Source: Bacteroidia bacterium (GTDB taxonomy: Bacteria; Bacteroidota; Bacteroidia; J057). Taken from it: 64,000 nt of DNA. Under the pieces are notes generated by a model. It did no database searches. It was not told the origin of the DNA and worked only from the letters and a program-made list of their open reading frames with translations. Where the stretch lies: NCBI GenBank assembly GCA_022760475.1, contig JALEFZ010000091.1, positions 1-64,000 of the forward strand, in the 5' to 3' direction. Both the position numbers and the translations under genes were made by a program. The stretch's first letter is position 1, and every line of letters starts with the position of its first letter. Positions 5,432 to 59,421 of this stretch are shown piece by piece.

Positions 5432-8400
5432 ATGATGAAAAATTACGTTGTCTGGAAGTTAGTCCTCTCATGTTTCTGCCTGGCTACTTTTTCAGTGATT
5501 GGCCATGCACAGACCGAAAGACTACTTCAGTTCAGTAGTTCCAATGGCTTGCCTTCCAATACAATCTATGACATAGACATTGATACAAAAGGCTATATCT
5601 GGATTGGTACTGGAAATGGTCTGTGTAGATTTGATGGCGAAAAAGTAAAGACGTATACCAGCCCCTTTTTAAAGGAACATGAAATCATCAGGGTAAAATG
5701 CATACCCAACGGTGATATCTTATTTCTAAATGTTACCCGACAATTGAGCATCATCCGGGATGAGAAATTATATACACCAAGCATTCCCGGATGTGATGGC
5801 TTGGGGGTGAAGGATTTTCTTGTTGACCCCAAAGAAAATTTATGGATTGGCCTCCCACGGAAAAACAAAGATGATGCAGAAAAGTTGGATTCCGGTTTGG
5901 GAGACCCCCATGTATTACTGTCTGATTTATACCCCTCTTATGCTACGGTTAATAGGTTGGGTTTTGGAGGCTTCGCACAAAACATGGAAAGCAATAAATT
6001 ATTGGCTTTCGTAGACCTCCGTTATAAAATCTTTGACGCTGTTAGTCATTTTGGAAAGCCCGTCTATGCCATTTTTGATCAGGCTGAAGATTTGGTTCCT
6101 TCCCAAGAAGTCAATACGCCTAAACTCTCCGGCTACAAATGGCTTAGCAGAATCATTCCCTTTAAAGAGGATTTTTTGATCTTATTCATCGATGGGCAAA
6201 AAGTAGGATATATCTCGGAAGATGGAGAAGTTGAAGTTTTTGAACTGCTGGATAAAAGTAGATTTACCCAAATATTTGATATCCTTCCCTCAAAAAATGG
6301 AGAAATATATTTTGCTACAAACAAGGGCGTTTTCGTGGGAGGATTTGAAGACAAGGAAATAAAGATCAAGAATGATTTTATCTTGAGAAATAAGTCTTGT
6401 ACGAAAATCAACCAGGATAAGAATGGGAATTTTATCATCGGCACAGAGAAAAACGGTTTGTTTATCCTCCCTTATCACAGTTATCGAACTTGGGAACTAA
6501 AGGATGAGCAAGCCGATATCCAGTATATTAGGAACCTCAGTGTGTTCGATGATCGATCCATCATGGGAATTTCCGATCAAGGCAATTGGTATAAGGTTTC
6601 CTCAGACCAAGTCCAACTTTTGGCAAAGATGCCCAAGCATAATTATAAAGGGGTAGTCAAAGGTGGGAATGAAAATTACTATTTCTATGGGAATGATATT
6701 TTTTATGAAATCGACTCACAAGGTGTAAGGAATAACTTTATTTTCAATGCCCAAATCGGTTTTATGAAGAATGTCAAGTGCATTCGGCAAACTTCATTGG
6801 GAACGATCCTGGGCTATTATTACAATGTACTTCATATAAATGAGGAAAGTAAACTGATTGATTCTCTTGCCAATGGACGGACGGTCAGTCTCCTTGAAGA
6901 TATCATTGGCAAAAAAATACTACTTGGGACAAGTCTGGGCTTAAAAGTCTATGATCATAAGAATGGGGTAAAAACATTCATTGATAAAAATAATAAATCA
7001 GTACCCTACATGGTGTATTCCATGGTTCAAACAGACCGTGGAGACATCTTTTTGGGGACTCATGGGCAAGGCCTCTGGCAAGTACGGGACAATGTGTTGA
7101 GCCGGGTAGATGAGATTTGGGGCATTGAGGCGAAGATTTATCCTCTTCTAACGGTATCTAATAATCTCATTTGGGCATCAACTGAAAAAGGCCTTAAAAA
7201 AATTGACACCCAAAATGGCCTTGTCGAAAGCATCAAGCTAACCAGTAATCAGTTGCAAAACGAAATCCTTGGGCTGATAGCCCATGACTCAATGGTTTGG
7301 GTTTCAACTACTGAGGGAATCAGCTTTTTTCCCGTTACCTATCCTATATCAGACCTGGAAAATACCTCTATACATTTGGATGGGATAACCGCCTATAACC
7401 GAGCCGGAGACAAGTCTGAAGGCAAAGTACTTCCCCCTGGCTTTGATCAAATTGAAATTAAGTTTTCAGCTATCTCTATCGGTAAAAGCATCTCTTTTCA
7501 GTTTCGACGCGAAGGAAGTACATCATGGAATGACCTTCCTACACCCTTCCTACAGTTGGACAATATTGCTCCGGGTAAGCATGCGTATGAAATTCGGATC
7601 AAGTCTGGCGATCCCAGAAGCAAGCCAGGAGAAATCCTCAAGGTAAAGTTCACCCTCAAATCCTATTTGTGGCAAGAGGCGTGGTTTTGGATCATGCTGA
7701 TGATAGGTTTTTTTGGGTTGTTGATCATTGAAATAAGAAGAAGAATTCAGCTCAAAGAGCAGAGGGCAAATCAAAAATTAAGGATGGAGAGGGAAATTGA
7801 GTCTTATAGGGTAAAGGCCTTAAGGGCACAAATGAATCCTCACTTTACATTTAATGTACTCAATGCCATCCAGCAGTATCTGTTACTCGGAAACAATGAA
7901 GAGGCACACTTGTACCTGGTTGAATTTTCACGCCTTATCAGGACAGCGCTGAACTCTACCAGCAGGGATTGGATGGAATTGAAAAAAGAAATTACCTTCC
8001 TCAGGACTTATGTCAAGTTGGAATTGTTGAGGTTTTCGGATAAGGCAAGTGTTATTTGGGATGTTTCCAAAGAGCTGGAGAATTCAGAAATTCTGATCCC
8101 CCATATGATTATCCAGCCATTGGTAGAAAATGCTTTCATTCATGGACTTTCCCAGAAAAGAAAAGATGGTTTATTATTTATTAAAATTTTTAGACATTCA
8201 AGCTTATTATTTGTTATTATAAAGGACAACGGGATTGGGTTCAAAAAATCGGGGGAAATGCAGGATGCGAATTACCATTCACACAATTCCCAGGGAATCT
8301 CGATGGTTCAGGAGAGACTTGGACTTTTGTATTCCGACAAAGAAGACATGGTGCAATACGACTTCTTTGATTTGGCAGATAATGATTATGTCCAAAATTT

Positions 8401-8455
8401 TGACCCTATTTTTGAAACCGGTTCTGTGGTAATTTTGCAATTTCCAATTGAATGA
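5432..8455 (+). CDS. Propeller sensor histidine kinase, LytS/YpdA-type
   Basis: This 1007-residue membrane sensor has a signal peptide (cleavage near GHAQ, about residue 27), then a large periplasmic region of two-component-regulator propeller repeats (about residues 35-650; for example IDTKGYIWIGTGNGL and DRGDIFLGTHGQGL). A Y_Y_Y-like beta domain (about 655-745) and one membrane helix (WFWIMLMIGFFGLLIIEI, about 750-768) follow. The kinase core is of the His_kinase/LytS class. The phospho-acceptor is H804 in MNPHFTFN, the N box is QPLVENAFIHG (about 893-903), and the G box is DNGIGF (about 932). Its stop overlaps the start of the LytTR regulator by 4 bases (ATGA), so the two are surely translated as a pair. 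Sensors of this kind often answer to glycans or other outside ligands. No polysaccharide-use genes are adjacent, so the signal is unknown. Confidence 0.92.
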   Translation: MMKNYVVWKLVLSCFCLATFSVIGHAQTERLLQFSSSNGLPSNTIYDIDIDTKGYIWIGTGNGLCRFDGEKVKTYTSPFLKEHEIIRVKCIPNGDILFLNVTRQLSIIRDEKLYTPSIPGCDGLGVKDFLVDPKENLWIGLPRKNKDDAEKLDSGLGDPHVLLSDLYPSYATVNRLGFGGFAQNMESNKLLAFVDLRYKIFDAVSHFGKPVYAIFDQAEDLVPSQEVNTPKLSGYKWLSRIIPFKEDFLILFIDGQKVGYISEDGEVEVFELLDKSRFTQIFDILPSKNGEIYFATNKGVFVGGFEDKEIKIKNDFILRNKSCTKINQDKNGNFIIGTEKNGLFILPYHSYRTWELKDEQADIQYIRNLSVFDDRSIMGISDQGNWYKVSSDQVQLLAKMPKHNYKGVVKGGNENYYFYGNDIFYEIDSQGVRNNFIFNAQIGFMKNVKCIRQTSLGTILGYYYNVLHINEESKLIDSLANGRTVSLLEDIIGKKILLGTSLGLKVYDHKNGVKTFIDKNNKSVPYMVYSMVQTDRGDIFLGTHGQGLWQVRDNVLSRVDEIWGIEAKIYPLLTVSNNLIWASTEKGLKKIDTQNGLVESIKLTSNQLQNEILGLIAHDSMVWVSTTEGISFFPVTYPISDLENTSIHLDGITAYNRAGDKSEGKVLPPGFDQIEIKFSAISIGKSISFQFRREGSTSWNDLPTPFLQLDNIAPGKHAYEIRIKSGDPRSKPGEILKVKFTLKSYLWQEAWFWIMLMIGFFGLLIIEIRRRIQLKEQRANQKLRMEREIESYRVKALRAQMNPHFTFNVLNAIQQYLLLGNNEEAHLYLVEFSRLIRTALNSTSRDWMELKKEITFLRTYVKLELLRFSDKASVIWDVSKELENSEILIPHMIIQPLVENAFIHGLSQKRKDGLLFIKIFRHSSLLFVIIKDNGIGFKKSGEMQDANYHSHNSQGISMVQERLGLLYSDKEDMVQYDFFDLADNDYVQNFDPIFETGSVVILQFPIE

Positions 8456-9228
8456 AAGTGAACCCCTATCCAATTCGGGTGATTATAGTAGAAGACGAAC
8501 TAGCTAGCCAAAGAGCATTAGAACTAACGATAGACAAGTATTGTCCCGAATTAAAAATACTTGGGAAAGCTCAAACGGTAGACGAAGCGATAGAATTGAT
8601 AGACAATACCAATCCACATATTGTATTCCTGGATATCAGGCTGCCTGGGAAAAACGGGTTTCATTTATTGGAATACCTCAATGATTTTTCTTTTGAAGTC
8701 ATCATTACCAGTGCATATGAGAAGTACGCCAGCACGGCTTTCAGATATGCCGCAATTGATTATTTGCTTAAACCTATCCATCCTGAGGAACTCAAGGAAG
8801 CTGTAAAGCGGTACAAAGAGAAAAGACTACTCAAGGCCAATCCCTCCAAATTGAAGAACCTGGGGGAAAATCTCAAGAATAATGTCTCTCAGAAAATGGC
8901 CATTGCAACTCTTGATGGATATAAATTTGTGCCAGTAAACAAGATTATTCGCTGTGAGGCAGATGGAAACTACACGACTTTTGTTCTGGTGGATTCCGGA
9001 AAACTGGTTTCAAGCCGAAATCTCAAATCCTATGAATCTGCACTTGATGGCCTGGTCTTCTACAGGATTCACCGGTCTCACATCATAAACCTGAATTTTG
9101 TAGACCGATATCGCAAAGGTAAAAATCCTGAGATCGAGATGAAGAATGGAGAGATTTTACCCATTTCACAAGTGCGTAAAATTGGTTTCGAGGAAGAGCT
9201 TGCAAAGTTTATGCGTGGAGATTTTTAA
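8452..9228 (+). CDS. LytTR-family response regulator
   Basis: This is a DNA-binding response regulator of 258 residues. The receiver domain (about 8-125) has acidic residues in VEDE (14-17), the phospho-acceptor D61 in VFLDIRLPG, a switch Thr/Ser in IITSAYE, and a conserved Lys in YLLKPIHP. A LytTR domain (about 155-255) follows, with typical segments such as IIRCEADGNYT and FYRIHRSHIINL. It overlaps the kinase gene at 5432 by 4 bases, so it is the output partner of that sensor. No target can be read from the sequence. A non-coding stretch of about 700 bases follows. Confidence 0.95.
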   Translation: MKVNPYPIRVIIVEDELASQRALELTIDKYCPELKILGKAQTVDEAIELIDNTNPHIVFLDIRLPGKNGFHLLEYLNDFSFEVIITSAYEKYASTAFRYAAIDYLLKPIHPEELKEAVKRYKEKRLLKANPSKLKNLGENLKNNVSQKMAIATLDGYKFVPVNKIIRCEADGNYTTFVLVDSGKLVSSRNLKSYESALDGLVFYRIHRSHIINLNFVDRYRKGKNPEIEMKNGEILPISQVRKIGFEEELAKFMRGDF

Positions 9229-9924
9229 ATCTGTCAATCCTTACCCAAGTTAGATTTTAAGAGAAAAATAACAAAAAATCATCCAGGAGCAATCATTTCA
9301 TACATCAAGCTGTTCCTGATGTCTATAAAAACCTCATGACATATATATTACTGAGACGGAGCTTGAATAGGCTTTAATAGATATGTTTTGCATGTTTTCG
9401 CGATACGAATGACAGCCATTCTACTAGAGCACCCCTTACATTCAGAAAAGTTAAGTCCCTGTTATATAGTCATTTGGATAAATTACGAAAACTTGATCAA
9501 ACAGGCTTTTCTTATTTTAACCTCTTTATTTTTTTTCCGTAATAGTAATAAGTTCAATCTATTCCCCTGAATTTACATTTGACCTCAATCCAAAATTCGT
9601 ATGGCTGCAAGCTAGAACGGGCTAATGATTATTGAAATTATAAGTAGATCTGCCAAATAGTTGTTAAGGAGTGCTGGTTGCAAGATTTTTATTGGATGAA
9701 ACATTATTCAACTTTTTTGCATAAAAAATCTTTAAGCGGAAGCATCCTTTCCAGCGAATTTTCGTTCTAAAATTAAAGGGCTTAAGCCAAAGTTGTATTT
9801 TATAGTAAGTTTTTCCTATTTGTTGAAAATCAGGACTTAACAAGCATAAATTATTAACTCTGGATTAATTCTTTCTTAACACTTTTCTTACAACAAACAA
9901 CAAGTTTTAGGACCTAAAGTCATC
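9229..9924. other. 696-base intergenic region, nothing recognised
   Basis: The region is AT-rich. A 60-codon frame at 9388-9570 gives a low-complexity, family-less peptide, and I do not take it as a gene. I see no clean terminator after the LytTR gene, no tRNA and no riboswitch. It presumably holds the promoter of the universal stress protein gene. Confidence 0.5.

Positions 9925-36709: not shown

Positions 36710-36710
<1 letters not shown>
36667..36710. repeat. Strong hairpin between metY and osmC, T-run on the plus strand
   Basis: GGAGGG (36670-36675) pairs with CCCTCC (36699-36704), and inside it CCCA pairs with TGGG. The seven-base T-run that follows lies on the plus strand, while the genes here run on the minus strand, where the A-run precedes the stem. 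It begins directly at the metY stop codon. It could stabilise or separate the two messages, or end an antisense transcript. Confidence 0.6.
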
Positions 36711-38038
<1,328 letters not shown>

Positions 38039-38248: not shown

Positions 38249-38356
38249 AATCAGATTATCATTCCCGAATTTGGGCTGGAAGGGGCACCTTTCAATTTGG
38301 AGGTTGCCAGGGAGTCTTAGAGCCAGATCTCTCGTCCCGTTCTTTATAAGCTGATT
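38249..38356 (-). ncRNA. SAM-I riboswitch (S-box leader) of metY
   Basis: Read on the minus strand, the segment folds as a SAM-I aptamer. P1 is AATCAGCTTAT (38356-38346) with ATAATCTGATT (38259-38249), one mismatch. GGGACGAGAGA and GGCTC give P2a/P2b with GAG/CTC replacing the usual GGG/CCC. The invariant GGCAACC (38308-38302) follows, and P3 closes with AAGGTGC. P4 is formed by TTCC and GGAA. The order and spacing match the S-box consensus. The aptamer lies 216 bases before the metY start, an unusually long distance. No intrinsic terminator is evident between them, so how it controls metY is not clear. Confidence 0.88.
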
Positions 38357-50764: not shown

Positions 50765-51151
50765 ATGAAGGAAAAGATATCACGCATTTTATTGATAGAT
50801 GATGACGATTTGACCAATCAAATTCACGAAACCGTCATCAGTGTGTGGTCAGGAGGAAAAGCATTTACCAAGGTATTTGCTGATGCAACCAAGGCTTTGG
50901 AGTACCTCAAAAGTTCCCTTCCCGAAGAACTACCCAACCTAATTTTACTTGATCTAAATATGCCAGGAATGAATGGATGGGATTTCATGAGGAAATTTAA
51001 AGAACTAAATTTAAGTCTCCCTATCTGTGTCCTAAGTTCATCCATATTAAAAAGCGACAAAGAAAATGCATTAAAACAATCCTTTGTCGCTTCATTTATT
51101 AGCAAGCCATTAAAACCGGCACATTTGGATCAACTGACTACCATACTTTGA
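50765..51151 (+). CDS. Single-domain response regulator
   Basis: This is a 128-residue receiver-only protein. The acidic patch is IDDDD (11-15), the phospho-acceptor is D63 in LLDLNMPGMNGWDF, and the conserved Thr/Ser and Lys are in VLSSSI and FISKPLKP. With no output domain it probably acts through protein contacts or as a phosphate relay. No kinase is adjacent; the PAS kinase at 27.5 kb is a possible but unproven partner. The stop lies 5 bases from the end of the converging TonB receptor gene. Confidence 0.93.
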   Translation: MKEKISRILLIDDDDLTNQIHETVISVWSGGKAFTKVFADATKALEYLKSSLPEELPNLILLDLNMPGMNGWDFMRKFKELNLSLPICVLSSSILKSDKENALKQSFVASFISKPLKPAHLDQLTTIL

Positions 51152-51156
51152 GAAGG

Positions 51157-53088
51157 CTAGTTTTTTCCTAGTCTGAACTTCACTCCACCCGAAATCCACC
51201 TCAAAGGCAATCTGGCCCCCAAGATGTCCTGGTATTCTACATTTCCAAGGTTGTACACCTGTCCATAGATACCAATATTTGGTGTGAAGTTGACGTTCAA
51301 TTTGGCGTTCCAAATGTTATATCGATCTTCTAAAACAGCATTGATCACAACGTCTTCTGTCCGCTCCCTAATCTTGTTGATGCTTTGGACTGAAAGGGTT
51401 ACCAAAGATTTGTAAGAGAAAATGGCTTGTCTTGAAAATAAAAATCTGGCCCTATTAGACAAATATCGAGTAGCTTCTGCCGTGGGATTTACCGTCTGTA
51501 GAAACTGGTTACCCAGGATTACATCCAGGCTGAAGTTCTCCGAAGAAAACCTATATCTCACTTGAGATTCAAGGCCAAGGGTTTGCACAGAAAGGATATT
51601 TTGTGCCAAAAGGTATTCTGAATTTGGGGCCAGGTTTTCGTTATTCACAATGTCATTGCTATTTACCAATCCATAGTCTATCAGGTTATTGTCTTTTCTG
51701 TAATAGCCCGTAACTCCGATTTTAAGCCCATCGACTGCCTTGATATCTACTCCTAATTCGCCTTGCCAGGACCTTTCTGCAAGTAGATCCGGGTTGCCAA
51801 GGTTTCTCCCCGGGCTCAGGTTGGTGATCTGGGAAGAAATAAATCTCTCGGTAAAGTCTGCCGCTCTGATTGCTCTTCCGCCCATGGCTCGGATCCCGAG
51901 TTTGCCATCCATTACTTTGTAGTTGATGCTCAATTGAGGAGAAAGCTCGAATCCGAAGTTGTCATCCTGATCAGCCCTTAGGCTGGCGTTGATAGAAAGA
52001 TCTTTGGTTGGGGTATATAGGGAGGTAACATAAAGTCCCGTGTGGAAATTGTCATGATCTCCACGGTCAGTACTGACGATATCTCTAAGATCTGCCTGAA
52101 GACCTGCTGCCAGACTTAATTGATCGTTGATGACCACATTGTGGTTCAGCAAGGCAAAAAGGAATTGTGTTCTGTGGATGTTGGCTGGAAAGAGGGGGTT
52201 AAAGGCAAATGTATCCCTGGTGGACTTATAAGCCAGGTCAAGACTGGTATTATTGTTTTTCCCTTGATGTACTACCCTTGCTTGAGACCAAAACTGGGTA
52301 ACAGTTTCTCTTGAAAGGTCAAAGGTACTCCTGGTGTAAAAGTACTGCGCATTGAAATCTCGATAATCCATGGCAGCTCTGGCAGAAATCTTCCAGTCGT
52401 TGATATCCTTTCTTAAAGAGACAGATGCGGTTGTGATGTTGAAGTCAGATTTGATGTCAGTGGAGTCAGGAGGAAGGTCCTGTCCAGCAGCTCTTTGGTG
52501 GATCACTCCAGCTTGTAGGTAACCAACTTTGGTTTTGATTCCCGCGCCAGCCTGGGCAGTAAGAAAACCAAACTCTCCTGCCCCAAGTTGTCCTTCTGCG
52601 AAGCTCTTTTCTCTTTCGGCTCCGTCGAAGTTGTAGGTAATGATATGGATTACACCTCCTACTGCATCTGGTCCGTAAAGAGCGGCAGATGGTCCGTAAA
52701 TGATTTCAATTCTTTTGATTTCAGATGGTGCAATCGGAAGGTAGTTGTTGAAATGACCAGTTAGGGGATCGCTTACCCTGACTCCATCTATCAACATCAG
52801 TACCTGAGAAAAAGTACTACCCCGCAGGCTGATATCAGCTTGCGTACCAAATCCACCCCTGCTTTGGACATTTACTCCAGGTAAGTGCCGCAATAGTTCG
52901 TCTATAGAGGAAATCGGGAGATCCAAAAGGGTATTGCCCTCAATTACGGTAATGTCTCTACCACTTTGCTCAATGGTTTGAGGAATGCGCTGTGAGGCAA
53001 TCATTACCGTATCTAAGTCCATTTTGGACTGTGCAAAAAGGCTTGAACAAGCCAAAAAAGAAATGAAAAAGTAAGTTATTGTTCTCAT
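51157..53088 (-). CDS. TonB-dependent receptor, BtuB-like
   Basis: This is a 643-residue outer-membrane receptor. It has a signal peptide (cleavage near LFAQ, about residue 19), no carboxypeptidase-like domain, and a plug domain (about 40-150) with VIEGNTLLDLPISSIDELLR, LPGVNVQSRGGFGTQADISL and GVRVSDPLTGHFNNYLPIAP. The pattern resembles BtuB/ColI-type receptors. The barrel has typical aromatic girdle strands and ends LRWISGGVKFRLGKN. The upstream gap is only 52 bases and contains no cobalamin riboswitch, so B12 uptake is not supported. It follows the Spy-like gene closely and may be read from the sigma-factor promoter. Confidence 0.88.
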   Translation of the reverse strand: MRTITYFFISFLACSSLFAQSKMDLDTVMIASQRIPQTIEQSGRDITVIEGNTLLDLPISSIDELLRHLPGVNVQSRGGFGTQADISLRGSTFSQVLMLIDGVRVSDPLTGHFNNYLPIAPSEIKRIEIIYGPSAALYGPDAVGGVIHIITYNFDGAEREKSFAEGQLGAGEFGFLTAQAGAGIKTKVGYLQAGVIHQRAAGQDLPPDSTDIKSDFNITTASVSLRKDINDWKISARAAMDYRDFNAQYFYTRSTFDLSRETVTQFWSQARVVHQGKNNNTSLDLAYKSTRDTFAFNPLFPANIHRTQFLFALLNHNVVINDQLSLAAGLQADLRDIVSTDRGDHDNFHTGLYVTSLYTPTKDLSINASLRADQDDNFGFELSPQLSINYKVMDGKLGIRAMGGRAIRAADFTERFISSQITNLSPGRNLGNPDLLAERSWQGELGVDIKAVDGLKIGVTGYYRKDNNLIDYGLVNSNDIVNNENLAPNSEYLLAQNILSVQTLGLESQVRYRFSSENFSLDVILGNQFLQTVNPTAEATRYLSNRARFLFSRQAIFSYKSLVTLSVQSINKIRERTEDVVINAVLEDRYNIWNAKLNVNFTPNIGIYGQVYNLGNVEYQDILGARLPLRWISGGVKFRLGKN

Positions 53089-53140
53089 ACGCCTTAGAAT
53101 GAAGGCGCAAGATTAGCTGAAATTTTGTATTAAACAAAGT

Positions 53141-53557
53141 TTAATTCTCCAAAGGTCGTGGAGGCGGTAAAGGGGGGCGACCATTTTTTCTCGGCCTTTT
53201 TCTTCGGAAAAACCTCATCTCCGAAGTGAGTTTCCCCATTTGATCTTCATCCAGGTATTCGCCCAGATTTACACGCAAATCCATCATTTCGCTTCGCATT
53301 TCTCTTCGAACCTGCTTATTGAGTTCGTGCATCTTATCGAAATGCTCAATTAAAATGGGTTTGATGATTTTCCTTTGCTGAGCAGTAACATTTATTTTAT
53401 CCAACAAATGTTCTACCCGTTGATCTCTATTTTGGAATACTGACCTCACTTGTTCCATCCTGTGTCTGACGAGCATTCCATTTAAAATAAATCCCAACAC
53501 AATCCCTATTAGCAGAGTCAGTAAAAGGATTCCATATGATTGAACTTTCGAATTCAT
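53141..53557 (-). CDS. Spy/CpxP-like membrane-anchored periplasmic protein
   Basis: This 138-residue protein has an N-terminal membrane helix (about 8-28) and a periplasmic part made of long charged helices. INVTAQQRKIIKPILIEHF resembles the LTxxQ region of Spy/CpxP and of periplasmic metal sensors such as CnrX. The end is basic and proline-rich (KRPRKNGRPPLPPP). In sigma-factor systems of the CnrYXH kind such a protein is the periplasmic sensor that works with the anti-sigma factor. Here it lies directly after the putative anti-sigma gene, so the same role is suggested. Metal ligands are not obvious: there is no Cys, and only His33 and a helical H/M pair. Confidence 0.7.
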   Translation of the reverse strand: MNSKVQSYGILLLTLLIGIVLGFILNGMLVRHRMEQVRSVFQNRDQRVEHLLDKINVTAQQRKIIKPILIEHFDKMHELNKQVRREMRSEMMDLRVNLGEYLDEDQMGKLTSEMRFFRRKRPRKNGRPPLPPPRPLEN

Positions 53558-53568
53558 TTTCTTTTTAA

Positions 53569-53979
53569 TTAAAAATCTGACCAGTCGGCGATCATCATAT
53601 TTTCAACATGTACTTCATTGGTTCCTGCAAGGGTATCTAGGTCCAGCTTTTCCTCACCCCAAACCGAAAAGATCAGAAGGAATACAGTAAGTGCAAGGGC
53701 AGGCATGCTGATCCATTTGAAACCAACTGGCAACTTCTCCCACGCCTTTACCCCCTTATCAGGAGCTTCGATTTGCTGCATTACTTTTTCTGCAAAAAAA
53801 CCTGAATAAGTATGCATATGAGTTTCAAGTAGGCCGTTCAATTTTGCAGCTTCCTTTTCATATTTTTTGAGTTCGGGATATTGATCAAAGGCTTGGCGAA
53901 GTTCTTTCTGTTTATCTTCGTCCAGTTTGCTATTGATATTCTCCAAAATCCAGTCCCTATATGTGTCGATCTTTTTCAT
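53569..53979 (-). CDS. Putative anti-sigma factor
   Basis: This 136-residue protein has a cytoplasmic helical N-terminal part (1-80; DWILENINSKLDEDKQKELR, YPELKKYEKEAAKLNG), one membrane helix (about 88-107) and a short acidic periplasmic tail (about 30 residues). The layout and its place 3 bases after an ECF sigma gene indicate an anti-sigma factor, although I see no zinc-binding HxxxCxxC motif. I infer the function from position and topology; the family is not certain. Confidence 0.65.
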   Translation of the reverse strand: MKKIDTYRDWILENINSKLDEDKQKELRQAFDQYPELKKYEKEAAKLNGLLETHMHTYSGFFAEKVMQQIEAPDKGVKAWEKLPVGFKWISMPALALTVFLLIFSVWGEEKLDLDTLAGTNEVHVENMMIADWSDF

Positions 53980-53982
53980 TTA

Positions 53983-54576
53983 CTATACCTCTTTGGGGGT
54001 GTTGACTGATTGTAAATTTTCAAGAATGACTTTCAATTTATCTTGTCCCCTCGCAAGCCTTGAAAGTATTGTTCCTTGAGGCAGGTTTAAGATTTTTGCT
54101 GTTTCTTTGGTCGAATAACCCTGGATCATTCGAAGCACTACAACGGATCTGAATTTAGGTTCCAGCACTTGCAAGCCTGCCTGTACCCATTCTCTTCTCG
54201 CCCATTCTTCTTCGCTCAAATCCTCATTAGGTACATTTAGCAAACGATCCTGATCTTCCTGAGAAGAAAAAGAAAACAGCCTCTTTCTGTCCCTACGTTT
54301 TATTTCATTGAGGGATAGGTTGATCGCAATTCGAGTTATGTAGGTTCCCAACCCTGCTTCACCCCTAAATTTTTCCAGTGATTTGTAAAGCCTTATAAAG
54401 ACTTCCTGCCCAACGTCCTCAGCCGATTGTGTCCTGCCCAACATGCTTACCACAGTCCTCGCAACCTGGTCCTGATAGGATTCCACAATCCTTCGAAAGG
54501 CACTGGAATTACCTTCTATGGCTTGCTGAATCAGCTCTTTCTCTGTCGTTTGGGCCAAGGTCAAATCATTTGTCAT
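53983..54576 (-). CDS. ECF-type RNA polymerase sigma factor
   Basis: This is a 197-residue sigma-70 factor with regions 2 and 4 only. Region 2 shows FRRIVESYQDQVARTV and EDVGQEVFIRLYKSLEKFRG, and region 4 shows LEPKFRSVVVLRMIQGYSTKETAKILN with a helix-turn-helix ending GTILSRLARG. It heads a minus-strand unit of sigma, anti-sigma, Spy-like protein and possibly the TonB receptor, with gaps of 3, 11 and 52 bases. It is divergent from the giant adhesin gene, separated by 99 bases, so it may control both units. The signal is unknown. Confidence 0.93.
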   Translation of the reverse strand: MTNDLTLAQTTEKELIQQAIEGNSSAFRRIVESYQDQVARTVVSMLGRTQSAEDVGQEVFIRLYKSLEKFRGEAGLGTYITRIAINLSLNEIKRRDRKRLFSFSSQEDQDRLLNVPNEDLSEEEWARREWVQAGLQVLEPKFRSVVVLRMIQGYSTKETAKILNLPQGTILSRLARGQDKLKVILENLQSVNTPKEV

Positions 54577-54675
54577 TGTGGAACCATCACAATATAGCTT
54601 TATGAGCTATTTTTTATCCGTTTGACAAAGGATTCCACCATTTTATTCCCAAGTAAATAGAAATTAATTAATTTA

Positions 54676-57600
54676 ATGTTTCCAACCCTCATTGATATGT
54701 ATAAAAGACCAGGCTTGAGTTTGTTAATGCTGTTGATATTCATTGGTGGATTCAATAGCCTCAAAGCACAATATGCTGTAAATGGTGATGCATCAAGGTC
54801 TGGAAACTGTTTTACCCTGACCCCCGATCAACCCTGGAAAAATGGCTCGGTATGGTACCTGGATAGGGTGGATATCAGTACAAAATTTGAGTTGTATTTT
54901 GAGATATTTTTAGGATGTAGAGATGGCTTAGGAGCGGATGGACTTGCCTTTGTGTTGCAGCAGGTAAGTACCAGCATAGGATCTCAGGGAGAGGGGATCG
55001 GCTACCAGGGCATCAGCCCTTCTATAGCGATAGAGTTTGACAACTTTCAAAACGGCAACAGGTTCGACCCCGCAATTGACCATGTGGCCATCATGAAAAA
55101 TGGAGTGGTAAACCACAATTCTGTAAACAACCTCTCTGGGCCCACATCCATTTTATCTTCGGGAGGCAATGCGGAGGATTGCCAGTGGCATGACCTCAAG
55201 ATTACCTGGGACCCTGACACCCAAAAGTTAAGGGTGTTTGTGGATTGCGACCTCCGATTAACCTACACTGGAGATATAATCAATGACATTTTTAACGGAG
55301 ACTCAAGGGTTTTCTGGGGTTTTACCTCAGCAACTGGAGGGTATTCCAATAGACATGAGTTCTGCCTAGATTTTGTATCTTTTGTAGAAGAACTCCAGGA
55401 TACAGCCATTTGCACAGGAGAATCTGTCCAACTTAACGTAGGGTCAGGGGATGAATTCAAATGGACCCCTTCTATTGGACTTAGTTCTGACACCATCGCT
55501 AATCCAATTGCAACTCCAGATACCACCACCACCTACTTTGTGGAAGTAATCGATGGCTGTAATCTACCCCGATATGATACGATAACAGTTTATGTACAGG
55601 ATTCATTGGACAAAATATTTACAGAAGATTATCGGCTTTGTCCAGATGGTGAGATTCTGATAGTCCCTGATTATCCATTTGCCAATTTTCTTTGGGACAA
55701 TGGCTCTACCGCAGATACTTTTTTAGCTACCCAGCCTGGGGAATTTACCCTTCAGGTATCAAGCCGCTGCGGCAGTTTTTCTGATACATTTACTGTATTG
55801 CCTCCGTTATTGCCTGACTTGCAGGTTTTTGATGTCCTTTGTCAAGGTCAGAATAACGGTAGAGCTACCCTAAACCTTCAAATTGGAACTGCCTCATCCC
55901 TGGTTTGGGGATTACCAACTGGTGCCCCCGTAAAAATAAGTTCTGCTGGCTTAATGTCTGATGAAGTTACGGGCTTGGAACCAGGAACTTACCTGTACCT
56001 CTCGGTTGATTCAGCGGGTTGTTTGCTCAGGGATTCATTTCAAATCACCGAACCTGATGATCTACAACTGATCAACCCCGTAACGACTGATGTTGATTGT
56101 AATGGACAAGCAACAGGAAGATTGGCTGCAGAAGTCCTTGGAGGCGTGGCACCTTATGCTTTCAGCATCAATGGTGGAGCTTTTCAAGCCAATCCCAATT
56201 TTTCAAATTTGTCTGCCGGGTCCTATGTCCTGACAGTACGAGACTCCAACGATTGTGAAGAAAGTTTGTCATTTCTTATAAATGAAAGTCCTCCTATTCA
56301 AATTAGTCTCGATTCAATGATTGGAAACCCCTGCTTTGGCGACAGTTTAGGAAAACTGTTTTTCACAGCTTCAGGAGGGACAGGTAACCTGGAATATGCC
56401 TTGGGAGCAGGAGCTTTTCAGGCCAATGGGATATTTACAGGATTAGCTGCAGGTTCCTACCAGCTGAGGGTTCGAGATGCCCTTGGGTGTGAAAATACTT
56501 TCAATGTTGCTGTTTCACAGCCCCCTTTACTAAGCCCATTTGTTGATTTACAAAAGAACGTGGATTGTTTTGGAAACTCTAGCGGAGCGGTGAAACTGGC
56601 GAGTAGTGGAGGTGCAGGATCTTATCGGTTTTCGTTTAACAATTCTCCATTCACTCAAGTTGATTCATTTTTCTCTTTGTCTGCGGGGACATACTCATTT
56701 GCGGTTCAGGATGACAGCGCTTGTGTCAGCCTTGATTCCTTCGAGATTACTCAACCTGATTCATTAATCCTTAATCTTGATCAACTGATTGATGTTGCTT
56801 GTTTTGGAGACTCTACAGGATCAGTGCAACTGAGTGGTGCAGGAGGCAGCGGGTCATATTACTTTGCCCTAGGAAATGGCCCATTTGATACAAATAGCAT
56901 GATTGGAGGGTTGGCTGTGGGAACATATACCTTCCTGATCAGAGATGACAGCTCTTGCCAGAATAGCATTCAGGCCAATATTGCTGAGCCTACTTTACTT
57001 CAAGCCTCTGCCTCCAACATACTGGGAGTTGATTGCCTTGGAAATCAATCAGGTGGGATGACCTTACAGGGAATGGGAGGGACTCCACCTTATATGTATG
57101 CATTTAGAAACTCAGGAAATGTAAGTACAGGATATCGTACAGGAACCTTTTTTGATTCATTATATGCAGGGCCCTATACAGGTCAGGTATTAGATGCTAA
57201 TGGCTGTCTGGCAGAAGTAGACACTTTTATTCCTACACCCACATCTCTTCGGGGAGGTATTGATACTTTGATAGATGTGGACTGCTTTGGGGCCAGTACC
57301 GGTTCAATTTTGATGTTTGCCAATGGAGGAACTGCTCCATATGAATACAGTTTTGACGGAGTCAATTTCGCACCGGGGCCATTCTTTGGGGGACTCTCCA
57401 GTAGAAGGGATACCGTAATCCTACGGGATGCAAATGCTTGTATCATACCAGTGCCCTTTATCATCGGTGAACCTGACTCCTTGGTCCTTTCAGTAGAAAA
57501 TGCCAGGGATATCGCTTGCTTTGGAGGCAATAGTGGGGAAATTTCCCTTGGAGTCTCAGGAGGAGTTGGTCCATTTGATATTGTAATGAACACCCAGCCG

Positions 57601-59421
57601 GGGGTAAGGGATACTTTCTTTTCAAACCTAGCTGCTGGTACTTACAATTTCACACTCACAGATGCCAATGGATGTACTGCAGGAGTTTCCACAGCTTTGT
57701 TGGAGCCTGACTCATTGGAAATCATTGTAGATAGTATTATTCCAGCATCATGCTTTGGAGATCGTGATGGGAGCATAGAACTTTCTCCTCAAGGAGGGGT
57801 AGCGCCTTACCAATTTGCCTTTATAGACTCTACTTTTGGAAGTATTTCCAGTTTTGATAGCCTGCCTGCGGGTAGATATCAGATTCAACTACTCGATGAT
57901 AGTGCTTGTAACACAACAATGTTTATCACTGTGGAGGAACCCGATACTTTGGTGTTGAGTCTTGAAGGAAAGCTGGATATTTTATGCCACGGAGAAAATA
58001 CGGGTAGGGTTGAGTTGAGTTTTATGGGAGGGAATAATTTATTTAGTTATTCAGTTGATGGATCGCCCAATCAAAGTGAGCCGATCTTTGATTCATTGTT
58101 GGCAGGAACATATTTATTTGAAATTGTAGATGAAAAGGCATGTTCGGATAGCCTTGAAATTACCCTATTCGAGCCCAATCCACTAGAATTAAATTTACTA
58201 AGGATTGAAGACGTGGATTGTTTTGGAAATGGGAACGGAGAAATTCTTGTCGCAAGTTTTGGGGGAATGATGCCCTATGAGCTCTCTTTAAATGGGGTTT
58301 TAACAGTTTCTGATAGCCTGTTCGAAATGCTTGAACCAGGTTTTTACGACATCATTCTGACAGATAGTTTTTCATGCCAGGATACCCTTTCAGGCCTTGA
58401 GATTACACAACCAGATTCGTTGGTGGTGGATTTGACAGGCTCTGATGTGCTTTGCCATGGGGAAAATTCAGGTAGTCTTGTGGCCAATGTAAGTGGCGGC
58501 ACAATGCCTTATGAATACCTTTGGGATGGAAACCCGGATATAGAAGGAGAATTACTTGATAATATAGTTGCTGCGGATTACCGCATCGAAGTTCTGGATG
58601 CCAATGGCTGTATTGATGATGCAGAGGCAACTATTTCCCAACCAGATACCCTTCTTCTAGCTTTGGATAGCATAAAGGAAGCATACTGTGACCTTGCAAA
58701 TGGCTATGCTTCCATCAAGGCTACTGGCGGAGTGGGAACCTACGATTTCGTTTGGGTGGGAAGCAGTACTTACCAAGGTGCGAGCCAGTCAGCAATTGAA
58801 GGAGGTAGCTTTATTACAAGGGTTTTGGATGGAAATGGTTGTATCGATACATTGAGAATTGTGGTGCCACAGGATCCACCTCCCGTTCCAAACTTCATCA
58901 GTGATCCTCCTATTGACCAAGTTCTGTTGCTTTCAGAAGCTCAGAATATGCAATTCGTTAATCAGTCTTCTACAAATTCTGTAGAATATCTCTGGGATCT
59001 TGATGCTCCTCTGGGACTTTTTGATACGGAAGATGTTGAGTTTTCATATACAGAGGAAGGTACCTATGTAATCAGTTTGACTGCCTACAATAAGTATTAT
59101 GTTTGTCCAGTAACCTATACCGATACGTTGAGAATTATTCCTGACGGCCAGTTGGAGGTTGCCAATGCATTTACCCCAAATGGAGACGGTATCAATGATG
59201 AGTTTTTCCTTGTAGGCAAAGGGATCGTAGATTTTTCTTTTGTGATATTTAATAAATGGGGCAAACAGGTTTACAGCTTTTCCAGTATTGAAGATGAATG
59301 GGACGGTAGAAACTTCAATGGCGTCAAGCAACCTGAAGGAGTTTATGTTTACCGCCTTCAGGCTACGTTTAACTCTGGAGAGAAAATAGACAGGGCAGGA
59401 ACAATAACTCTTGTGCGTTAG
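54676..59421 (+). CDS. Giant surface adhesin: L-type lectin, SprB repeats, T9SS type B
   Basis: This 1581-residue surface protein has a signal peptide ending near LKAQ (about 32); ATG 54697 is an equally good start. An L-type-lectin-like domain (about 33-245) has LGADGLAFVLQQ, SIAIEFDNFQNG and WHDLKITWDP. A short Ig-like region is followed by about 12-13 SprB-type repeats of about 79 residues (roughly 385-1400), each with a D-x-x-C-x-G start, a central GG(x)xPY and an EPDSL-like end. A PKD-like domain and a gliding-motility/CHU C-terminal domain (VANAFTPNGDGINDEF ... GVYVYRLQATF pattern) close it as a type B T9SS signal. It probably binds surface glycans or supports gliding. It is divergent from the sigma factor gene. 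Confidence 0.92.
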   Translation: MFPTLIDMYKRPGLSLLMLLIFIGGFNSLKAQYAVNGDASRSGNCFTLTPDQPWKNGSVWYLDRVDISTKFELYFEIFLGCRDGLGADGLAFVLQQVSTSIGSQGEGIGYQGISPSIAIEFDNFQNGNRFDPAIDHVAIMKNGVVNHNSVNNLSGPTSILSSGGNAEDCQWHDLKITWDPDTQKLRVFVDCDLRLTYTGDIINDIFNGDSRVFWGFTSATGGYSNRHEFCLDFVSFVEELQDTAICTGESVQLNVGSGDEFKWTPSIGLSSDTIANPIATPDTTTTYFVEVIDGCNLPRYDTITVYVQDSLDKIFTEDYRLCPDGEILIVPDYPFANFLWDNGSTADTFLATQPGEFTLQVSSRCGSFSDTFTVLPPLLPDLQVFDVLCQGQNNGRATLNLQIGTASSLVWGLPTGAPVKISSAGLMSDEVTGLEPGTYLYLSVDSAGCLLRDSFQITEPDDLQLINPVTTDVDCNGQATGRLAAEVLGGVAPYAFSINGGAFQANPNFSNLSAGSYVLTVRDSNDCEESLSFLINESPPIQISLDSMIGNPCFGDSLGKLFFTASGGTGNLEYALGAGAFQANGIFTGLAAGSYQLRVRDALGCENTFNVAVSQPPLLSPFVDLQKNVDCFGNSSGAVKLASSGGAGSYRFSFNNSPFTQVDSFFSLSAGTYSFAVQDDSACVSLDSFEITQPDSLILNLDQLIDVACFGDSTGSVQLSGAGGSGSYYFALGNGPFDTNSMIGGLAVGTYTFLIRDDSSCQNSIQANIAEPTLLQASASNILGVDCLGNQSGGMTLQGMGGTPPYMYAFRNSGNVSTGYRTGTFFDSLYAGPYTGQVLDANGCLAEVDTFIPTPTSLRGGIDTLIDVDCFGASTGSILMFANGGTAPYEYSFDGVNFAPGPFFGGLSSRRDTVILRDANACIIPVPFIIGEPDSLVLSVENARDIACFGGNSGEISLGVSGGVGPFDIVMNTQPGVRDTFFSNLAAGTYNFTLTDANGCTAGVSTALLEPDSLEIIVDSIIPASCFGDRDGSIELSPQGGVAPYQFAFIDSTFGSISSFDSLPAGRYQIQLLDDSACNTTMFITVEEPDTLVLSLEGKLDILCHGENTGRVELSFMGGNNLFSYSVDGSPNQSEPIFDSLLAGTYLFEIVDEKACSDSLEITLFEPNPLELNLLRIEDVDCFGNGNGEILVASFGGMMPYELSLNGVLTVSDSLFEMLEPGFYDIILTDSFSCQDTLSGLEITQPDSLVVDLTGSDVLCHGENSGSLVANVSGGTMPYEYLWDGNPDIEGELLDNIVAADYRIEVLDANGCIDDAEATISQPDTLLLALDSIKEAYCDLANGYASIKATGGVGTYDFVWVGSSTYQGASQSAIEGGSFITRVLDGNGCIDTLRIVVPQDPPPVPNFISDPPIDQVLLLSEAQNMQFVNQSSTNSVEYLWDLDAPLGLFDTEDVEFSYTEEGTYVISLTAYNKYYVCPVTYTDTLRIIPDGQLEVANAFTPNGDGINDEFFLVGKGIVDFSFVIFNKWGKQVYSFSSIEDEWDGRNFNGVKQPEGVYVYRLQATFNSGEKIDRAGTITLVR

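Follow-up and report, generated by a model that had tools for sequence, protein, structure and literature searches.

The system closest to the locus described here is CirY/CirZ/Spy of Phocaeicola vulgatus (PMC13114119; this and the other papers cited are represented by the accessible parts of their text), which has a sigma factor, an anti-sigma factor and a Spy-like protein in this order. The same order is found on the minus strand of a 64,000-nucleotide stretch of Bacteroidia bacterium DNA (contig JALEFZ010000091.1, positions 1 to 64,000; designated as the window), where the three genes at 53141-54576 are designated as the triplet. The genes cirY, cirZ and spy are co-transcribed, and are upregulated 143-, 132- and 155-fold in colitis (PMC13114119). 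Deletion of cirZ raises the expression of cirY and spy and frees the regulon, the other targets of which are transcribed apart (PMC13114119). A second sigma/anti-sigma/spy set of P. vulgatus lies 5′ of a SusC/D pair; its spy gene is 3-fold up and the pair is strongly down (PMC13114119). As far as the accessible text goes, this set is a published case of similar adjacency without co-regulation.

The report on CirY/CirZ/Spy is the one direct match to the module in the literature searched, and the triplet in the window belongs to an already known kind; nothing on such a module was seen in the accessible parts of PMC10141476 and PMC12045153. What is new is a promoter element shared across phyla, together with predicted outer-membrane targets. 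The CirYZ targets are a carbohydrate-binding hydrolase and a glucosaminidase/LysM protein (PMC13114119, accessible part), whereas an outer-membrane beta-barrel and secreted Spy-like proteins are predicted here. The triplet is read as an autoregulated extracytoplasmic function (ECF) sigma switch for envelope stress, which resembles CirYZ-Spy and would in part operate as CnrYXH does without being a member of that type, with a rough probability of 0.7. The computed basis of this reading is the gene order, the sigma branch, the promoter element, the candidate targets and the class of the anti-sigma factor.

The main envelope-stress sigma systems have been worked out in Proteobacteria and Bacillus. 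The readable promoter element and the short list of predicted targets make one Bacteroidota counterpart directly testable. The sigma E/RseA/RseB system of Escherichia coli follows the same envelope-stress logic, and the layout of the sigma E consensus resembles the triplet promoter. Compared with it, a Spy-like protein replaces RseB in the triplet, and the anti-sigma factor has no long periplasmic domain.

The triplet genes and their products

The reading of open reading frames in the window confirmed the four minus-strand genes of the initial annotation, with intergenic gaps of exactly 3, 11 and 52 bases. That annotation had placed the four genes in a single unit, but conservation as a group holds for the first three only. 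The first gene (53983-54576) encodes a sigma factor of 197 aa with Pfam matches to Sigma70_r2 (region 2, E 1.1e-16) and Sigma70_r4 (region 4, E 1.8e-9). These two regions only, together with the NCBIfam match to TIGR02937 (96.7 bits against a cut-off of 42.9), characterize it as an ECF sigma factor, and it is 52-57% identical to its four orthologs in the same family. The second gene (53569-53979) encodes a one-pass membrane anti-sigma factor of 136 aa, and the third (53141-53557) a membrane-anchored LTxxQ/Spy-like periplasmic protein of 138 aa; neither has a Pfam match above the cut-off in a single-sequence search. The fourth (51157-53088) encodes a BtuB-like TonB-dependent receptor of 643 aa.

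Within the window's family, the anti-sigma factor was detected in five of 13 genomes, and all five loci (the window and L021-L024) have the order sigma, anti-sigma, Spy-like. When only the Spy-like protein was used to search genome contigs, no relative came up, and relatives were then sought with the sigma alignment. With up to eight candidates scored per genome, the sigma model matched at E ≤ 1e-40 in 10 of 395 genomes of the class, of which four are from the window's family and six from one other family; all six of the latter have the triplet. Named genomes gave 80 loci, and the genes downstream of sigma were read at the best 17 of them and at 10 others. The triplet was found in 15 of these 17; of the remaining two, L055 stops at a contig end after the sigma gene and L061 has a FecR-like protein. 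The named triplet loci are labelled Bacteroidota, Aminicenantes, Zixibacteria, Gemmatimonadetes and Caldithrix, and are mostly metagenome-assembled.

In a tree of 58 sigma factors, the 26 triplet sigma factors form one branch (SH-aLRT 99) with two undecided ones and L088. The last, which has a long end branch, carried the label "other" in this tree; reading of its locus revealed a triplet. Of the 29 loci in this branch, 27 have the Spy-like gene next after the anti-sigma gene, L055 and L061 being the exceptions. The order singled out in the initial annotation is thus a conserved module, different from the sigma-FecR-SusCD arrangement as was proposed there. Gene order across genomes upholds the triplet, which recurs, and not the inclusion of the TonB receptor gene, which lies elsewhere in relatives.

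Two loci show other combinations. In Roseithermus (L061, 5959-7716), a sigma factor of the branch is accompanied by a partner read from its sequence as FecR-like, and the promoter element is present at one mismatch; a partner swap is possible. An Acidobacterial locus (L075, 6001-7569) has the same order and kinds of part, with a zf-HC2 anti-sigma factor that retains its zinc ligands and a sigma factor outside the branch. It is perhaps an older or parallel form of the architecture.

The anti-sigma factor consists of four cytoplasmic helices, one membrane helix and a periplasmic tail of about 28 residues, with the membrane segment and the tail length read from the sequence. Its AlphaFold2 model (pLDDT 78) has a long membrane helix preceded by four helices. 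It has no Cys residue, and thus is not of the zinc-binding anti-sigma type (ZAS, HxxxCxxC). There is no Pfam match up to E 1 for the window protein, and zf-HC2 is matched by 2 of 16 anti-sigma members, with a best E of 0.0024. The similarity was indicated through profile comparison with hhalign: the 16 anti-sigma factors aligned to seven RsiW/zf-HC2 sequences, a set built from loci collected in the analysis, with 97.0% (E 1.1e-10) over residues 8-110 and with F-x-x-x-V-M in common, against 2.1% for the one negative control. The best sequence match in the PDB is RsiW (5wuq_C, E 0.036); RseA is also among the eight matches (E 0.79), and the other six are unrelated.

Judged from these sequence comparisons, the anti-sigma factor is a class I anti-sigma domain (ASDI, RsiW-like) without zinc ligands. 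The initial annotation was right about the missing zinc motif and had left the class unclear; the profile comparison gives class I. SigW/RsiW of Bacillus and relatives has the same class I domain, the likeness covering the cytoplasmic domain and the membrane helix. The window anti-sigma factor differs from RsiW in the lost zinc ligands and the short periplasmic part, and the Spy-like third gene is added. In class I complexes, helix 1 contacts sigma region 4 and helix 4 contacts region 2 (PMC7406223), and the pair in the window would bind in the same manner. Recognized class I domains accompany only 6% of the ECF factors of Bacteroidetes (PMC7406223, accessible part). The window anti-sigma factor was missed by the single-sequence Pfam search, and its class I nature emerged only from the profile comparison; the gap may thus be in part a matter of detection.

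In short anti-sigma factors of about 100 aa (L044-L049, L057, L068 and L071), the first helices are missing and the helix F-x-x-x-F-x-x-x-V is retained. Their assignment to a CnrY-like class II was considered and rejected, as they align to the long ones with a score that is inflated by three rows common to both alignments. When the profile of these short proteins was searched against the PDB, CnrY was not listed and the best matches were unrelated. The short proteins may link class I to minimal anti-sigma factors of the CnrY kind.

The Spy-like protein was likewise recognized by profile. It aligned in hhalign to six LTXXQ-type proteins with 95.6% (E 1.2e-8), against 0.4% for the one negative control, and this profile similarity places it in the LTxxQ/Spy superfamily, which is represented by LTXXQ (PF07813) and Metal_resist (PF13801) proteins. 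In single-sequence searches, the window protein has no Pfam LTXXQ match and a sub-threshold match to Metal_resist (E 0.062), and among 15 members LTXXQ and Metal_resist are each matched by one at E ≤ 0.01. No PF13801 member was found in the genome of the window at E ≤ 0.01. An N-terminal hydrophobic helix with GxxxG is present in all 15 aligned proteins, in which G18, G22 and Q106 are invariant. The AlphaFold2 model (pLDDT 88) is all helical. E. coli Spy and CpxP are soluble. Because of this, the topology of the Spy-like protein is that of CnrX.

The gene order of CnrYXH is unlike that of the triplet. CnrYXH of Cupriavidus metallidurans likewise comprises an ECF sigma factor, a one-pass anti-sigma factor and a membrane-anchored, periplasmic helical protein (PMC7689651, PMC7406223). 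The shared parts and topology would fit a metal sensor, in which metal-ion binding by the Spy-like protein frees the sigma factor for metal resistance. His72 is retained in four of the five Spy-like proteins of the family, and an OEP efflux gene follows after 137 bases at one locus (L063), which also fit such a role. However, no column of His, Cys or Met past the start codon is conserved above 40% among 15 Spy-like proteins, those of the window and of named loci, and the anti-sigma factor is of class I, whereas CnrY is of class II (PMC7406223, accessible part). The targets differ as well: those recognizable are Spy-like and outer-membrane proteins, and no efflux gene was noticed at the 27 exact promoter sites of 11 genomes, several targets of which are unnamed. 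A metal sensor of the CnrYXH type is therefore improbable, and the metal sensing suggested in the initial annotation is not supported.

The promoter element and the candidate regulon

The element GGAATA-N16-TGTCnAA is present with at most one mismatch before 22 of 27 sigma genes, always with a 16-base spacer; it is absent at spacers of 12-15 and 17-20 bases in the same 27 upstream regions. With L055 (exact) and L088 (without the element), the total for the sigma branch is 23 of 29. In the window, an exact match, GGAATA-N16-TGTCAAA (54621-54649, minus strand), lies 44 bases 5′ of the sigma start codon. The element was first spotted by eye in 19 upstream regions, and only the eight added later, L055 and L088 are independent; eight of these 10 loci have it (seven of the eight, and L055), and L088 misses it. 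None of 60 other ECF upstream regions has the element at one mismatch or less, a set that includes L088, later shown to be a triplet. At L044 and L045, the exact element precedes a Spy-like gene (L148 and L149, respectively) lying 5′ of the sigma gene.

Described ECF promoters of Flavobacterium psychrophilum have a CGT box, unlike this element (PMC9723704). For CirYZ, the accessible text of PMC13114119 gives no promoter element. The element was not found in the literature searched, and the main ECF classification work, outside that search, may describe it. Its conservation before the sigma gene would be a sign of autoregulation, with the element presumably read by the triplet's own sigma factor.

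The exact pattern occurs at three sites in the 6.86 Mb genome of the window, against one for the reversed pattern. They are located 5′ of the sigma gene, 26 bases 5′ of an outer-membrane barrel gene on contig C10, and inside a gene. A longer pattern, searched at up to one mismatch, gives 10 sites against five for the control. One such site lies 41 bases before the gene of a secreted protein on contig C28 with a type IX secretion tail, which is 38% identical to a protein of the relative G010 whose gene has the exact element. Both proteins lack an LTXXQ match in Pfam, but for each of them one LTXXQ-type protein from the other family is similar, with 23-25% identity over about 130 residues.

Ten relatives contain 24 exact sites, against four for the control. 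Three sites precede sigma genes, three barrel genes, six genes for secreted Spy-like proteins and four other genes within 90 bases; the remaining eight are intragenic or without a clear target. The barrel-type targets (L146, L154 and L161) have CarboxypepD_reg domains and are read as outer-membrane barrels. The six Spy-like targets with the exact element are L148, L149, L151, L159, L160 and L166, and L172 has the element at one mismatch. Pfam LTXXQ is matched at E ≤ 0.01 by L149, L160 and L166, and above the cut-off only by L160; L148, L151 (as L139) and L159 were called Spy-like from reading the sequence, and some targets by similarity.

Homologs of the C10 barrel were found in 10 of the 13 family genomes. 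In all three triplet genomes among them (G000, G006 and G010), the exact element lies 26-45 bases before the best homolog, whereas the homologs in the seven genomes without a triplet (G002, G003, G004, G005, G007, G008 and G009) have the element at 3-5 mismatches only; for G002, at three mismatches, the upstream region was scanned from the matched region. Four extra homologs (two in G000, one each in G006 and G010) have it at four mismatches. By counting, the contrast of 3/3 to 0/7 has a chance of 1 in 120, kinship being ignored. G001 and G012 have the triplet and no homolog at the cut-off; in G001 the element precedes another barrel gene (L161). The C10 barrel has no meaningful similarity to the TonB receptor in the window (best E 0.30).

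The TonB-dependent receptor

The receptor gene is probably an independent neighbour outside the module. Its product matches the Pfam TonB Plug (E 3.6e-23) and barrel (E 6.1e-21) domains, and it is BtuB-like, with 155.9 bits for TIGR01779, below the cut-off of 599.7. The Rfam search of the window and of the surroundings of the five BtuB-like orthologs gave no cobalamin riboswitch, and therefore cobalamin uptake has no support from a riboswitch. The orthologs, 42-48% identical, were found in G001, G007, G008, G010 and G012. The distance to the triplet is about 0.3 Mb in G001 and about 3.5 Mb in G010; in G012 the ortholog is on a separate contig with different neighbours, and G007 and G008 have the ortholog and no triplet by anti-sigma search.

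The arrangement in G012 matches that of the window in two separate parts. Next to the receptor gene of G012 lies a convergent response regulator gene, which is 48% identical to the response regulator receiver gene that has this position in the window (50765-51151, plus strand). A gene named from its sequence as phosphoesterase-like lies 5′ of the receptor ortholog in G012, G007 and G001. The triplet of G012, on the other hand, is divergent from a lectin-SprB gene (42% identity), as the triplet in the window is divergent from a gene (54676-59421, plus strand) for a surface protein with lectin, SprB-repeat and CHU_C matches in Pfam. Since the neighbours of the receptor and those of the triplet match the window separately, the window looks like two older synteny blocks joined in the 52-base gap by rearrangement.

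The initial annotation proposed a signal-and-uptake loop, in which the receptor would be co-transcribed with the triplet, controlled by its sigma factor, and feed a substrate signal back. The two share a strand and are separated by 52 bases, and no terminator was found in this gap, so that read-through into the receptor gene is possible. Downstream genes were read at 26 triplet loci, eight of the genes with Pfam and the remaining ones judged by size and sequence. At L059 and L068 the sequence stops no more than 415 bases after the Spy-like gene. Of the remaining 24 loci, two have a TonB receptor gene as the next one in the same orientation: the window and the Caldithrix locus L069. In the latter, a CarboxypepD_reg TonB receptor (7383-9713) follows directly and shares four bases with the end of the Spy-like gene, which also speaks for a loop; yet it has a different architecture and its locus lacks the promoter element.

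The loop is unlikely when the position of the orthologs, away from the triplet or in genomes without one, is considered together with the gap and the receptor itself. The ECF element is missing from the gap (best match at five mismatches), which holds a possible own promoter. In FecI/FecR/FecA signalling, the anti-sigma factor carries a FecR domain and the receptor an N-terminal signalling domain. Neither domain was matched in Pfam here, and the Plug starts at residue 41, leaving no space for an N-terminal signalling domain.

The vegetative promoter of Bacteroidota has a TTTG box. It also has TAnnTTTG (PMC9723704). The gap contains TTTG-N19-TAATCTTG (53108-53138, minus strand), one mismatch from TTTG-N19-TAnnTTTG, with p 0.034 in shuffles; a site as good is found in 0.02 of shuffled gaps. 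Exact TAnnTTTG lies 23-25 bases before the start codon in two of the five orthologs (p 0.006 and 0.002). A separate promoter, which the initial annotation had named as evidence against a joint unit, is suggested by these matches, but the other three orthologs have no convincing site upstream, and vegetative sites are not enriched in the 4.2-kb region (two, against 4.4 expected in shuffles). Confidence in this putative promoter is moderate, and the gene-order case for independence is stronger.

An inverted repeat, GCGCCTT-CATTCT-AAGGCG, is located at 53089-53108, directly before the receptor start codon. It has no T run and could form a small leader hairpin.

The proposed envelope-stress switch

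In the proposed switch, the anti-sigma factor of unstressed cells would hold the sigma factor at the inner membrane via its class I domain, and the Spy-like protein, in the periplasm beside the short anti-sigma tail, would keep the complex locked. Unfolded envelope proteins or another ligand would occupy the Spy-like protein, open the lock and release the sigma factor. Free sigma factor would then transcribe from GGAATA-N16-TGTCnAA its own operon, the outer-membrane beta-barrel gene and genes for secreted Spy-like proteins, one of them with the type IX secretion tail. The TonB receptor gene would have been brought downstream by rearrangement and be independent of the switch. We infer both the role of the Spy-like protein as a lock or gauge and the nature of its ligand.

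RseA and RsiW are destroyed by regulated proteolysis. The Spy-like protein may accordingly be an effector chaperone only, with the anti-sigma factor sensing alone and being destroyed in the same way. This is a less probable alternative, to be taken seriously: the anti-sigma factor is related to RsiW, the other Spy-like genes with the element resemble plain effectors, and deletion of cirZ alone frees CirY (PMC13114119). Nevertheless, the tail of about 28 residues, as far as the sequence tells, appears small for both a protease site and a sensor site. The third proteins have the GxxxG membrane helix throughout (15 of 15), whereas the other Spy-like targets look secreted, and the Spy-like gene keeps its place after the anti-sigma gene in nearly the whole sigma branch (27 of 29 loci).

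Several results weigh against the stress switch, beginning with those given above for the receptor: the gap without a terminator, the orthologs without a convincing promoter, the vegetative sites that are not enriched, and the Caldithrix receptor. The likeness to CirY/CirZ is one of gene order and description. Foldseek returned no PDB match at E < 1 for the anti-sigma or the Spy-like model, and for the Spy/CnrX fold Foldseek and VIA-align gave only unrelated helical matches, perhaps due to the membrane helix included in the models. The best PDB profile match of the Spy-like protein is apolipoprotein A-I (E 2e-8), probably as a generic amphipathic helix, and Spy itself is at E 0.48. The triplets of L044, L047, L057, L069 and L088 have no element directly 5′ of the sigma gene (best match at five mismatches for L088), and L045 has two mismatches. 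Site counts in the genome of the window are small, both exact (one of the three intragenic) and with one mismatch, and G012 has the triplet and zero exact sites. Four of the seven presumed Spy-like targets (L148, L151 as L139, L159 and L172) have no LTXXQ match in Pfam.

A wider reading, tentative and rather doubtful at present, is that the triplet represents a widespread and little-described ECF family, labelled at its loci as Bacteroidota, Aminicenantes, Zixibacteria, Gemmatimonadetes and Caldithrix. In such a family, a membrane-anchored Spy-like gauge of unfolded proteins would lock an RsiW-class anti-sigma factor and run a stress response of outer-membrane biogenesis. If this is true, the response under GGAATA-N16-TGTCnAA includes an outer-membrane barrel and a chaperone-like protein secreted by the type IX system.

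Elsewhere in the window, a SAM riboswitch aptamer (RF00162, 58.4 bits) was found at 38253-38352 on the minus strand, just 5′ of a gene for a Cys/Met metabolism PLP enzyme (36710-38032). This pair resembles an ordinary methionine operon.

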